From Nannobrachium achirus (lineage: Eukaryota; Chordata; Actinopteri; Myctophiformes; Myctophidae), in assembly GCA_963921795.1 (NCBI GenBank), contig OY997639.1, positions 50,544,768 to 50,608,767 on the forward strand: DNA of 64,000 nt, written 5' to 3'. The notes under the pieces are model-generated. The model was not told the origin of the DNA. It did not search any database and saw nothing but the letters and a program-made list of their open reading frames with translations. The position numbers and the translations under genes are program-made. Position 1 is the first letter of the stretch. Each line of letters opens with the position of its first letter. This document shows positions 7,901 to 55,867 of this stretch, in pieces.

Positions 7901-10900
7901 GTGTTCCAAAATGGATATATATATCTTTTTATTTAGTCACAAGCTCTGGGTTAAAACTTTTCATTGGTTCATAAAATCCAGAGACAGACTTAATCACTTT
8001 CTGGTGTCCCTATTTTGGGCATGTCATAGGTGAACATTTGCATTGTGAATGAGCTATAGCAATCCAGGGTTTCCTGCAAGAAAATCTAGTAATTATTCCA
8101 AAATCAAATCGCCAGTAATCTACACATTTTCTCGTAAACCAATCAGAAGGCAGGAGGACTCTAGTTTACTAGGCTAATCTACACTTGATTTGTTGTCAAT
8201 GGACAAAATAGCAAAAACACTGGTCGTTAAAGTCTTATTCATTAATTATTATTCAAAAGTACTTGATTTGATGAAATGTGGTGAAAGTTTATGCCATTGC
8301 TGTTCTTTTGGGATTTTGGGGCAGCCAACGAGGCAGCAGGCTGTCTTCATAAACATAATACTCTGTTGAAATGTATGCAGAGTATTGGCAGGGCAGTCCA
8401 TGCTTTTAAGTTTACACAAATCACCTTGCGCAGTCCCTGAGTGAGGATTAACAGAATTGTGTGATTTGCACACCGAAGAACTTATAGCCTTGTGTTATTG
8501 CCCTCATTTCCGCCATGTCGAGATGATTAGATCGTTAAACCACATTAGCGGTTCTTTGGAGTGGTAAGGAGCAGATGTAATAATCTTCCATGGCTTGTGG
8601 ATCTTCCTCCAACAGAACAACAGGCCATTTCAAAGCCATTCACGTTTACCTTATGGGTTTTAATAATAGTGTCATCTGCCGCAGACAGCAGTGGAGGGTA
8701 GAGAGAAGTTTGATTCTCTGCCCAGAACCAATTGGGCTGGCCAGGCTTTTATTCCTCACCATTCCCATGGGTGTCATCTGGTACAGGTCCAGTCATTGCA
8801 CACTTGTTTTTCAGCACAGACGGAGATCAGGGAACCTGCTTAGAAAACGACTGTACTGTTCGTTCCCTTGCTGTTAAAATCATCCCCCGGTCCTAACCAG
8901 CCGTTGACACATTCTGATGTGTTCAAGTGCACAGTCTCTCTCTATCTCTCCTCAATCTTTATTCATGAGCATTAGACCGGTGCTGTGTCACAGATGTTTT
9001 GCACCAAAGTTTACACTTGTATAGTGACAGGGTGTCATAATTGTCAACTTATATAAACTTCAAACCATCAATGCAATTCATATAAATGACTGGACTGCTA
9101 AGAAAATTGTGTGTTACACATTAGGAGGATAGCAGGCAGACATTATAATAATAATAATAATAAACTTTATTTATATAGCACTTTTTATAGAACAAAGTCA
9201 CAAAGTGCTTGACAGAAGAATCAGCAATACAAAGAAGAATCAGCAAAGCAAAAGCGGTACAACACATCGCAGAATAAAAGTAATAAATGGAATAGATGAA
9301 AAACAATAATAGCATACATTAAAATCAAGACAGACAAGGGAGCTAAGGGTTGAAGGCAGCTCTGTTTTCAGGAGGGATTTAAAACGGGGCAAAGAGTCAA
9401 CAAGCCTTATCTCTTCGGGCAGATCATTCCAGAGTGTTGGGGCTCTAAAAGCAAAGGCACGTTCACCTCTTGTTTTATAATTGCAAGCTAGAACGATCAG
9501 CAGTCCTTTACCTGAGGATCTACTGTAAGTTAACGGGATGGGACATAAGGGTCAAGTAAGTCCAAAATGTAGGACGGTGCAAGGCCAGATATGGCCTTGT
9601 AGGTGATAAGCGAAAATGTAAAATCAATTCTAAAAGAAAGAAATTAAAACTACACTGCTCAAAGAAATGAAGGGAACAAAATGTTCCCTTAATTCTTTGA
9701 GCTTTCTTTGAGCAGTACTACAGCATACTATACTCAAATAAATTCAAATAAATCAAGGGAACATTTTGTTCCCTTCATTTCTTTGAGCAGTATAGTTTCT
9801 GTCTAAATAACATTTAGCAGCTATGGACAAGCAAACAGGATACACTCTACTTGAACATGTACCTGTACTGTAAAAAACATACATACAGACTAACACAGCA
9901 ACATTTATCTAAATACTAGACAAGATAGATAGTGTGGGGAATTTGCTGGTGGGGGGTGCCATGGCCTGCGGGCATGGCCATGCAACCAGTAACTGTGAGC
10001 CAGTGGAGTGAGTACAGAAGTGGAAAGACATTATCATTTTGGGAGGTTGAAGGCCAGGCATATGCAGTACTGCTGTTCTAGATCAGCTGTTGTGACCTAG
10101 AATGCAGGCAGACTAGCAAGGAAGGAGTCGCAGTATTTGAGCCCGACTGAAGCTTGGAGCTGAGCAGACTCCTTTTGTTGAGGAAGGGTCTGAACCTCCA
10201 GATCAGGGGTCTTCAACAGGGGGTCCTCAGAGTTACTACAGGGGTTCCTCCAAATCTTTGTGTGACTCCTTTTTTATATTAACCACTTGAACCCTAGCGT
10301 CCATATTCTGAGAACTTTAGCCAAAAATAGCATCTACAAGCTCACAACGTTGTGAGCTTGTAGATCGGCTATATTTTTATTTTATTAAGAGGTTTGGTGT
10401 AGAGGAGAAAAGAGAAGACTAAGTACAGAGTGAAGGGTCAAGTTTTTTTTAGTATTGACGGTTCAAGTGGTTAAATATCTGAAAACACAAATCTACTTGA
10501 ATCCAAAATGCACTGATGATTGTGCCGTCAAACGATGAAACTATATGGTATCTATGGGTTATGGGGGTCCCTGCTTCATCTCTCTCTCTCGACTCCTTGG
10601 CCTGAAAACATTGAAGACCACTGCTCCAGATGATGTAAAGTGCCAGCCCCTTCAAGAAACCTGGTACAGTAGGTCTGACTGATCAGGTTGGAGGAGAACC
10701 TCTTAGAGTGCCTTCCCTGATACCAAGGTTGGAAAGGGTTTCCAGAAGAACCTTGTGGTTGACAGTATCAAATTCTGTACATTCATCTGTCAAGATGGAT
10801 GAGGATGAAGAGTGCCTTTGTGACTGCCGAGAACTGCCGTTTCAGTACAATGGGCAGCTTTGATGTCTGGATGGGATCCGAAAGGTTATTCTGCAAGAGA

Positions 10901-13900
10901 TTGAGAGCGAGCTGGTTGGAAACCACTCACTCTCTGCAGTTCTTGACGTCTTGAGTATATTGAGGAGTGGAGTAAATCTGTCTGATTTGAAGGCAGATAC
11001 GTGATGTCAGAGCCTTTTATGAAGTGATGTCAGAATGAGTCAGCGCTTGCGCCGATTTCCTCCGGAACAGCCTGATGTCAACAATCAGCTCCGCATACGG
11101 AGATTCCGAATGTTTTGCGCCGGTTCGGGAAAACCGTGCATCGGGTCGGGTCAAGGCCCGGCACTGCACTCCGCGGCGGGGAACGCGTGTGCTGAATCTG
11201 AAGCCGGTGGGGCCAACGGTTCTCGAGATACGCGGATTACATACTCACACACACACACACACACGTACGCACGCAGAGACTTCTCGCATTTATTGTAAGA
11301 TTAGTGAGAAGCTGGGAGAAAGTTTCTAATCTTCATGCTTCTTGGTAGGTGATGAATGCTACAGCAGCAAGGGCTGGAAGATGTTTTTAAAGTGAGGACT
11401 AGGTGGAGAAGAGCTTCTTTGGGTTAGATGCAGAGGACAGAATTGTAATGCAATATAAAGTGGATTTAGTTTCGCATAATGAGAAGGTAGAGGCAGAAAG
11501 GAGGGAATGAAAGTGAGAGAGGTTTGTGCCGACTCCATGGCAGGGACCGTCAAAGACAGTTGAGCAAATCTCCTATTCCTGCGTTTTCATGTTCGCACGT
11601 GGTCACATAGTCCTGTCCTCCTGACAACACAGCCCGCCGCACAGGATTGCCGTTTCTGTATATACCAGTAAGACTCCCTAATCGGGAGATACATAAACTT
11701 TAGAAGGCAATAGTAGCCAATCAGGAGGGAAAAGGGGGAAATGGGACAGATCCATGTTGATGACATGACTTTAGAGATACTGTGTACTGCTTTGCGTGAT
11801 TTTAGGGCAAAATCGGCCTCATGGTGGCGCTAGAAGAGAGCCATGTGAGAAATGAGGGGTGGAGGTTGTAAGCCTCTATAAAGCACTTAAAATGTATTTT
11901 TAGCTCTACTGTTTTGTTTGCATTGCTGTGGACAAAACAACCATTAGGAGCCCGTTATGCGACTTTGTTGTCAAGACTGTGGTGTAGTGTTTTTAGTGTG
12001 ACCACAGTGGGCTTGTTTTAGACGGCTTTAGTTAGAGCGATCACACTGTCTGTTGTGCGGTTGCTTTGCTCGCTCCCAAGTGTGTAAATTGTTTTGCCGT
12101 GAAGGCTTAATTGTTCTCAGGCTGTCGCTCCACCAGGTAATTTTGTACCCGTTGTATCGAATCAAGCGCTTGGAGTGAGTGTGCACTGTGCTGGCATGCA
12201 TATACAGTATACTGTATGTGTGTGTGTGTGTGTGTGAGAGAGTGAGAGAGAGAAAACCTGGTAATTGTTCTTGGCTGCACTCAAATAGTCCTTTGTGATT
12301 GATCAGGAAGGCTCCTAAAATGACCTGGAAGTTGAGTTAAGGCCATGATAAAACTAAAAGCTTCAATTCTCTAAATGCAGAGGAAAGGCGCTTCATTTAA
12401 TGGGAAACACAAGTTTCCCATTATAAATCGTATTTTTGCAGTGCAGATGTTTTTTTCACGTAGCCCTTGGTCACACCTGTCACTTTGTAGGTGTGCTAAT
12501 GTCTTGCTTGTTTAGTCCATCTTTAGAAAATAGTTTCACCGCGGATGACTCACATTGTTACTACCGATGTCACGTGATTGTGTGGCCCAAGTTCAGTCAA
12601 ATTGTGCCCGTCATTCGCATGTGGTGGCCAGTACTAGTTCTTTTGTGGCAGTGATGTCATCATATCGGTCATCGTCATGTTTTAGCAAGAGAGACAAAAA
12701 TTTAAATATGAAAAACATTTTACTTTTTTTTTTTTTACAAAATGTGAACCCTATTCAGGGATTGACTTCCATGACTTACTGTACTGAAAACGTACACAAT
12801 ACATTTGGCACTGAATGGTGTAGTGGTTTGTTTATGAGATTATCTGTGGACTAAGACGGATGGACAAATACAGATGTGCCGTTTCAATGTTCCATTTCGT
12901 TCCCCTTTTTTTTCTTTTTTTTTTACAGAAACTAGCAAAAATAGCTGATCTACAATCAAAATGTTCTGTAAATCCGCTGAAAATCTACTGTCTTGCCAAT
13001 GGCAGGACGTGTGAAGTTTTGAAATAGCACATCTGTACAGTACATTTGGGGGACATGCATACATACGGACGAATGCACTTTTAGCCAGATCGCCACTTAG
13101 GAGGCCACGCTGTTGTGTGCCTACATGCTTGTGCGCACATGTGAGTGTTCAGAACTGTTCACCCATGAGCTTATATGTTGCTAACTGGTGTGCTTTGTGT
13201 GTCCTTCCAGCCTACAGTACCTTCTACATCGTAGGCCTGGTCCTCTCCATGCAGATCCCTTTTGTGGGCTTCCAGCCAATCAGAACCAGCGAGCACATGG
13301 CCGCAGCAGGTCAGTAACGGATCGCCTGCAGTTGGAGTGCACTGTGAAGTCCTCAATGTTCATTCAACTCTGAGAGTGTACAAATGTATTATGTACCTTA
13401 ATTAACCCATTTAGGCCTAGAATTATAGAATGCTTTAACCGGTGAAAAATAGCAGATATACAAGCTCACAGCGCGGCACCGAGTGCCGCGCTGCGAGCTT
13501 GTAGATCTGCTATTTTTGAAAAAGTCGTGAAAATGTGTGCAAATCTTTGAATATATCTATTTTCAAAGCGAACGTTTGTAACTCAAATTTTGCTTCTGGG
13601 TGGTCCCTGGAACTAAATATTTTGAGATGCGGGTCCGTGGCCAAATAAATATAATTTTGGGGGTCCTTCACATGAAAAGGATTGAGAACCACTGACATAG
13701 TAGTCTCTCAAGAACAGATTAATTGAGCTCCAGTTAAGTGAAAAGGACCTTTTCTTTGACGATGGCTAGCCAGATTGCTGACATAGAAACATAGGTTTTT
13801 CAAAAAAAATCTTAGAAGGATTCAAAAGACACTTATAGAATCGGGTCAAAATTCAAATTTTCAAGATTTTTCAAAAATAGCAGATCTACAAGCAATTGAA

Positions 13901-55785: not shown

Positions 55786-55867
55786 TTGTGAAAATGGCAG
55801 ATCTACAAGCTCGAAACGCATTGTGTTCCGAGGTGTTGTGAGCTTGTAGATCTGCTATTTTCACAAT
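55786..55867. repeat. Shared palindrome inside nested hAT
   Basis: TTGTGAAAATGGCAGATCTA ... TAGATCTGCTATTTTCACAA. Arms about 33 bp with an imperfect tip. Confidence 0.9.

Follow-up and report, generated by a model that had tools for sequence, protein, structure and literature searches.

The window analysed here, a stretch of 64,000 nucleotides from the fish Nannobrachium achirus (assembly GCA_963921795.1, contig OY997639.1, positions 50,544,768 to 50,608,767), holds small DNA transposons with unlike ends, many of which carry a copy of one and the same short palindrome. An earlier note on this DNA had listed the hairpin at 17 places, and its recurrence is borne out: a search with the 18-base half-site TAGCAGATCTACAAGCTC (cut-offs of at most 3 or at most 4 mismatches) recovered at least one half-site at the looser cut-off in all 17 and both arms in 11, the second arm in the right order being absent at that cut-off from the copies starting at 10322, 13871, 31198, 32831, 33226 and 37901. 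The window as a whole holds 35 half-sites at up to 4 mismatches and 32 at up to 3, against 1, 0 and 0 (at up to 4) in three order-1 Markov shuffles of it; single half-sites at 1551, 12942, 15633, 19022, 37298 and 54401, two of them at 4 mismatches, lie outside the earlier list. The sites and their hosts are as follows, with family labels where one applies; entries given no strand are unstranded.

10279-10474, + strand: host TTAACCACTTGAACC...GGTTCAAGTGGTTAA element (family b)
10322-10380: palindrome, one arm damaged
13389-14009, + strand: host TTAACCCATT element (F1), two palindromes per copy
13444-13519: palindrome 1 of the TTAACCCATT element at 13389-14009
13871-13966: palindrome 2 of the same element, rearranged
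15588-15650: one-armed site outside the earlier list, family i (a relative of e)
16224-17523, + strand: host whose AGTGGCGTTTCC inverted ends are each flanked by ATA, resembling Harbinger in duplication length alone
16609-16688: degenerate palindrome
18631-19105, + strand: F1 host copy
18674-18727: palindrome, shortened centre
19022-19039, - strand: leftover half-site, second palindrome of the F1 copy at 18631-19105
24688-25111, + strand: host hAT, ends TAGGGATGGGACGATA, 8-bp duplication TTCGGTAT; its interior shows homology to the TTAACCACTT element
24795-24876: near-perfect palindrome with TTTGCCAAAA-type outer arms, both arms present, -46.2 kcal/mol as DNA
25931-26004: palindrome in a TAGGGCTGTCAC-type hAT (family h) that is damaged
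29013-29792, + strand: outer hAT around the F2 copy that holds the next palindrome, ends TAGGGCATTCAC, 8-bp duplication GTGACTAG
29590-29671: palindrome in a CAGTGGTTCTC-type hAT (F2) copy
31081-32289, + strand: host CAGTGGTTCTCAACC hAT (F2), 8-bp duplication GCTTAGAA
31198-31253: palindrome, right arm partly deleted
32831-32877: palindrome 1 of the F1 copy at 32790-33362, centre deleted
33226-33303: palindrome 2 of the same F1 copy
34327-34379: palindrome of the F1 copy at 34267-34810, centre deleted
34693-34768: other palindrome of the same F1 copy
37901-37953: shortened palindrome in the F2 hAT at 37600-38077
41440-41676, + strand: host element of about 240-270 bp (family e) with the palindrome at its centre and ends TCGTCGTTGTCGGG...CCCGACARYGACGA next to TA; part of the right side is lost in this copy
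41521-41594: palindrome, CAGC/AAGCAC variant
41926-42005: diverged palindrome, host not assigned
55786-55867: palindrome in an F2 hAT fragment (55751-55998)

The core common to these sites is an old palindrome of about 63 base pairs (bp), AAAATAGC(A/C)GATCTACAAGCTCACAACGC followed by its mirror, extended in many copies by about 8 more paired bases per side; its centre is 27 bases long in 33 of 61 two-armed copies. Its conservation is not only an effect of the search, since the core is kept beyond the 18-base query, which is preceded by AAAA (20 flank groups) and followed by ACAACGC.TCGC (8 groups in which the centre is intact). Between families, sequence agreement is near chance beyond about 5 bases outside the core, and the two arms of one copy keep matching above that between-family level for about 12 bases outward: across 60 copies in 22 flank families, the arm extension score averages 5.7, compared with 3.1 (standard deviation (s.d.) 0.33, maximum 4.2 of 300) when the arms are taken from different families. 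The outer 8 or so bases of the stem are family-specific and mutually paired and are not fixed ends. Folded as single-stranded DNA, four window copies reach -38.5 to -46.2 kcal/mol, with z scores of -12.9 to -15.9. At L004:597-739, one arm has grown into a small tandem array of six half-sites, spaced 25 bp apart in head-to-tail units (CAGCAGATCTACAAGCTGTAAGTCA).

The searched genome comprises 1.66 Gb, the window lying on a 79-Mb contig, and contains 838,733 half-sites at up to 3 mismatches (419,192 forward and 419,541 reverse), against 259 matches (110 and 149) to a control pattern made by reading the half-site backwards; absence of the hairpin elsewhere in the genome, which the earlier note had named as evidence that would overturn it, is thus the opposite of what was found. 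With one half-site per 1,977 bases genome-wide and one per 2,000 in the window, the window is ordinary for this genome. Twenty unselected 10-kb stretches at fixed positions (200 kb) contain 114 half-sites at the stricter cut-off (3 mismatches) and, at the looser one (4 mismatches), 90 merged sites with 41 two-armed palindromes. Extrapolated to the whole genome, this sample would correspond to roughly 0.6-0.8 million sites, occupying a few percent of it. An Rfam scan of the window returned nothing at gathering scores. Four exact matches to the 18-mer in viral contigs, one per contig, were judged to be chance, and the 20-mer GATCTACAAGCTCACAACGC had no exact match in viral or prokaryote contigs, a result that is uninformative about other fish. 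Among the titles and abstracts of open-licence papers listed by the literature searches, we recognised no report of a palindrome common to DNA-transposon superfamilies.

With the palindrome masked, the flanks of 126 sites (from the window, the unselected stretches and L001-L008) formed 12 groups of at least two members and left 40 singletons. Hosts with clear ends include the non-hAT elements TTAACCCATT (F1), TTAACCACTTGAACC (b), TCGTCGTTGTCGGG next to TA (e) and AGTGGCGTTTCC flanked by ATA, and the hATs CAGTGGTTCTCAA (F2), TAGGGATGGGACGATA, TAGGGCTGTCAC (h) and TAGAGATGGGA. Short inverted ends with an 8-bp target duplication were found at 24688-25111, 31081-32289 and 29013-29792, in L026 (3293-3693), in L028 (about 8308-9214) and in a composite, L087, described below; in five hAT copies the duplication is exact and copy-specific (TTCGGTAT, GCTTAGAA, GTGACTAG, ACTCCATA and GATGAAAC). 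TTAA, the mark of piggyBac or Kolobok elements, stands at both ends of 10279-10474 and at the ends of F1 copies, where without empty sites it is inseparable from the inverted end, and the ATA on both sides of the AGTGGCGTTTCC host has the 3-bp length of Harbinger duplications, in a single copy. In size (about 200-1,300 bp), inverted ends and high copy number the hosts are miniature inverted-repeat transposable elements (MITEs), with at least 40 matches for each of the three families searched genome-wide among 3,714 (TAGGGATGGGACGATA hAT), 2,383 (F2) and 1,540 (e) first-look candidates; none of the window hosts described has a stop-to-stop frame of at least 150 amino acids.

Could all of these hosts be one family whose flanks have diverged beyond recognition? 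Some apparent families do merge on closer inspection (e with i and g; d with D, x26 and x24; b with the TAGGGATGGGACGATA hAT), and weak flank matches with z of 2-4 among 325 flank pairs (b-F1 and F1-F2, each equalled in 1 of 100 shuffles, and the left flanks of two hATs, equalled in none of 100) leave room for distant kinship among contexts. A single family is nevertheless very improbable given the near-chance agreement between families outside the core and the host ends and target duplications (8 bp, TTAA, TA and ATA), which belong to different transposase superfamilies. At least five contexts have no convincing flank homology to one another, namely F1, F2, h, the e group and the b group; the AGTGGCGTTTCC host is a singleton in the flank grouping, its sole homology test. 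The earlier claim of at least five host families needs some redrawing: the TTAACCCATT, TTAACCACTT, CAGTGGTTCTC hAT and TAGGGATGGGACGATA hAT elements have clean ends and the AGTGGCGTTTCC host inverted ends, but the AT-rich element named there was not recovered, and the TAGGGATGGGACGATA and TTAACCACTT hosts are not independent, since about 90 bases next to the hairpin are common to both. Its companion claim, that common descent of whole elements does not explain the sharing, stands, as one palindrome occurs in elements of several superfamilies with unlike ends and duplications.

Passage of the palindrome from one superfamily to another is preserved in a set of paralogues. Four palindrome-less e copies and the hairpin-bearing L012:2455 have the same sequence outside e: on the left, 131-138 of 142-144 bases agree with L012, and on the right 63-81 of 70-87. 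All five are thus copies of a larger repeat that share one e insertion at an identical position. The larger repeat has the ends CAGGGACGTGCTGG...CCAGCACGTCCCTG; in L087, where both sides are visible, it is flanked by a perfect 8-bp duplication, CACGCAGC, and in the four copies whose right end could be read the sequences diverge beyond that end. From these ends, the duplication and the differing outer sequence it follows that an entire e element was captured by a hAT-type element and spread with it to five or more places, a transfer of the hairpin between superfamilies with the parts intact. We read the TAGGGATGGGACGATA hAT as an older capture with one end lost: it aligns with the TTAACCACTT element (b), from the ACCACTT end of b to the hairpin, over about 90 bases on one side (score 24.9; 300 shuffles gave a mean of 11.3, s.d. 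2.0, and none as high). The earlier suggestion of a module copied between elements is upheld to this extent, with nesting as the route for e in the CAGGGACGTGCTGG hAT and the TAGGGATGGGACGATA/TTAACCACTT pair as a second case; for the F2 hAT, the TAGGGCTGTCAC hAT and the TTAACCCATT and AGTGGCGTTTCC hosts nesting is the presumed route. Separately, in the F1 copies L011, L014 and L026, F1 interiors with palindromes lie between other ends, with GTGACGCCCCTG or similar beyond, which is probably a further capture by a CAGGGGCGTCAC hAT. In a TAGGGCTGTCAC-type hAT at 26950-27330 of the window, which has no palindrome, the left half appears to be inverted in situ when compared with L026 and L023; recombination at a hairpin could have this effect.

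Within the same paralogue set, the hairpin is whole in L012 and has given way to a clean joint in L084 and L086, to CTA repeats in L085 and to a right-arm piece in L087. By parsimony it was present when the larger repeat began multiplying and was then lost in more than one way; regain by gene conversion in L012 is a possible alternative. Since, by the same parsimony, a clean joint arose here through loss, such a joint is no proof of a pre-insertion state.

That outcome bears on the earlier proposal of a tiny foldback transposon, a palindrome that would insert on its own into other elements and duplicate a short target, and on the empty-site search suggested with it. We searched the genome for host copies in which both flanks meet, in the TAGGGATGGGACGATA hAT, F2 and e, a search that selects hairpin-less copies and so yields no loss rate. 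In the TAGGGATGGGACGATA hAT, all 40 matches scored of the 3,714 candidates run across the join, and the 20 aligned copies have ragged junctions, several retaining left- or right-arm pieces. F2 gave 45 matches (40 of 2,383 candidates scored), and in the 16 of 17 join-spanning copies examined the left break always falls at TTCTATT and the right break varies: the joint is an exact ATT in four copies and one base off in two more, a right-arm piece follows CTATT microhomology in three, and others keep ATTGTG, ATTGT or ACAATT or extend further. Among the first 15 copies listed for e (51 matches, 40 of 1,540 candidates scored, with a join query that itself contained 2 CTA units), the joint has its cleanest form (AAACTACTTTTG) in six, 2-4 CTA units in five and arm pieces in four.

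Taken alone, the clean e joints look like the empty TA sites that self-insertion predicts, those with CTA repeats differing from them by CTA units only, and the hairpin of e is flanked on both sides by TA (or ACTA); TA or ACTA in e and ATT in F2 could be family-level duplications. Direct repeats at the hairpin edges are also slightly longer than between families (mean 3.1 against 2.3, s.d. 0.4, with one copy per family), and flank singletons account for 32 of the 90 sites in the unselected sample. Independent insertion with TA duplication in e was attractive until the five paralogues were aligned and the clean joint there turned out, by parsimony, to have come about by loss. As the edge repeats are barely longer and have no motif, duplication or edge position common to families, the outer arms are family-specific and the junction spectrum includes ragged hAT joints with arm remnants, we consider a self-inserting foldback unlikely; the empty-site search itself was divided, with clean joints in part of e and F2, ragged ones in the hAT, and loss as a second source of the clean ones.

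The arms of the palindrome vary together. When one real copy is taken from each of nine flank groups, 10 of the 31 stem pairs occur as two Watson-Crick types that differ on both arms, and differences between pairs of families comprise 93 compensated, 226 one-arm (a count inflated by private one-arm changes of single copies) and 45 uncompensated two-arm changes. Swapping arms between copies 2000 times, a null that ignores relatedness, gave 24.4 compensated differences (s.d. 11.9, maximum 77) and never as many as observed; without i and g, the relatives of e, 52 were found against 15.2 (2 of 2000 as high), and without b as well, 42 against 13.3 (5 of 2000). A wider set of 46 strict full-length sites in 16 flank groups has 25 both-arm changes against 10.1 (s.d. 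3.1; maximum of 500 shuffles 21). Within three groups (24 copies), by comparison, there are 65 one-arm, 6 paired two-arm and 3 unpaired two-arm changes, five of the six paired ones in a single diverged copy, L014:779. With both-arm changes between families and one-arm changes within them, complementarity seems to be kept in family-founding lines more than in dead copies, which we read as pairing maintained by constraint in source elements, with arm-to-arm copying as the rival explanation.

By that rival, mutation alone would keep the arms complementary: the hairpin forms during replication and the polymerase copies one arm from the other, with no function involved, an account that bears on the pairing and not on spread by nesting. 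Template switching at palindromes has been described (PMC7999016). In two of four centre-shortened e copies (L045 and L008) the C.T arm mismatch of that family has been restored to C:G and A:T pairing, the outcome expected of a polymerase that turns round within the hairpin, and template switching may be the cause; in L005:1501, a TTAACCACTT element, both sides of the hairpin are copies of one half, an inverted duplication of one flank centred on the palindrome. Mutation alone does not sit easily with the excess of one-arm changes among full-length copies within groups (65 against 6 on both arms), nor with the retention of the C.T mismatch in 9 of 14 e copies (L041 and L051, both centre-shortened, retain it, and 2 of the 10 copies beyond the four centre-shortened ones have a pair there), and we hold it to be rather doubtful.

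At non-CpG sites, two of the three groups counted have also changed less in the core than in the flanks, which we take as constraint on the source elements. In e (10 copies) the core departs from the consensus at 10 of 586 such sites and the flanks at 110 of 1,564, with CpG sites alike (12 of 120 and 32 of 230); F1a (3 copies) agrees in small numbers (0 of 177 against 10 of 363), and e, F1a and F1a2 together give 28 of 955 against 140 of 2,196, the comparison covering these three because F2 (core unrecognised by the script) and h (too few copies) gave no count. A site recruited by the host, for example for chromatin or replication, and kept by selection on the fish would account for a core sequence kept across families and for the very high density of 90 sites per 200 kb. 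Such recruitment is highly implausible when hairpin-less copies are easily found in all three families searched and CpG decay is alike in core and flank (18 of 172 against 34 of 262).

On balance, the observations are best read as a shared hairpin module that is spread by nesting and kept paired in active lineages. The palindromic core would be carried inside non-autonomous DNA transposons with no movement of its own and be copied whenever its host element transposes. New host families would be entered by nesting, in which an element with the palindrome lands in another element and the two then multiply together, a step that is clear in one case, supported in a second and presumed in the rest. 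In copy-producing lineages the arms would stay complementary while their sequence drifts, the covariation being observed and its cause surmised. In dead copies, as the data show, the hairpin decays, chiefly through mutations on one arm and through deletions that often fall at short direct repeats at the hairpin base and often leave part of an arm behind. Our guess is that the hairpin acts in cis as a structural element, aiding the copying or excision of its carrier.

Several points weigh against this reading. Nesting is clear for one host pair only, and the other side of b gives no significant alignment to the TAGGGATGGGACGATA hAT (32 of 300 shuffles as high). Clean or CTA-repeat joints in 11 of 15 e copies, and an exact ATT joint in 4 of 16 F2 copies, are what empty sites would give. 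Arm swapping leaves relatedness uncorrected; most sites were found through the core itself, which biases core conservation, and F1a2 has non-CpG differences of 18 of 192 in the core against 20 of 269 in the flank (four copies, some centre-deleted and poorly aligned). Retained A/G or C/T arm mismatches in e, g, h, d and x24 copies mean that pairing is not enforced everywhere, and the repairs in L045 and L008 are of the kind that polymerase turning could produce. A bolder version is possible, and we advance it tentatively: a transposon-of-transposons module, one hairpin under selection for base-pairing that raises the copy number of any DNA transposon capturing it, and that has spread through at least five otherwise unrelated lineages to form a few percent of a vertebrate genome.

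Chance nesting aside, elements that depend on different transposases would be expected to have nothing in common. Nested or composite MITEs, in which one element lies inside another and is moved on as a composite, resemble the composite of e inside the CAGGGACGTGCTGG hAT, but ordinary nesting predicts neither one module in so many families nor the covariation of its arms. The central domains of short interspersed elements (SINEs), known as CORE, V and Deu, are similar in that one conserved internal domain occurs across otherwise differing families; SINEs, however, are retroposons copied through RNA, whereas the palindrome here lies in DNA transposons. The zebrafish MITE Angel folds into a hairpin whose paired form has been proposed to matter for amplification (Izsvak 1999, as related in PMC12628747). 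Like the hosts described here, Angel consists of short teleost transposon-like elements that self-pair as single strands; unlike them, it is one family, whereas one internal palindrome here lies in several superfamilies. GC42, one of the palindromic GC clusters of yeast mitochondria, is likewise a short palindrome with a reported stem constraint and with merger and shuffling into new elements, but it is mitochondrial and thought to move by itself with a putative short duplication (PMC4478555); the palindrome here is nuclear, with about 0.84 million half-sites, lies inside transposons and has no established duplication of its own.

A single internal hairpin in many hosts would mean that a factor beyond the ends recognised by transposases helps to determine which small elements are amplified, a point of relevance to the long-standing question of how MITEs become so abundant. 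The several hundred thousand copies also form a natural experiment on the stability of palindromes in a vertebrate genome, with losses that can be classed by mechanism.

The window has other features as well. Exons at 32540-33790, which we take by eye to be the end of an STT3B-type oligosaccharyltransferase gene, have a TTAACCCATT element in an intron. The interval 46.2-47.3 kb holds a hyaluronidase frame (Pfam PF01630), for which the best named matches are from teleosts; the best listed match is 70% identical, and identity is 54-70% in the best 120 of 878. An inverted repeat of about 985 bp with 98% identity at 56561-59618 surrounds an open frame of 273 amino acids (57657-58478) that has no Pfam match, and is possibly a large foldback element. 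The region 42989-44330 contains a tandem array (43262-43971) whose self-matches are 89-98% identical at offsets such as 111, 185, 296 and 370 bp and which sits between direct repeats of 148 and 121 bp with 100% identity. Long near-palindromic elements that have no half-site, 76-83% self-complementary, lie at 3120-3710, 7549-7859, 39599-40244 and 42365-42715 and are probably other MITEs.

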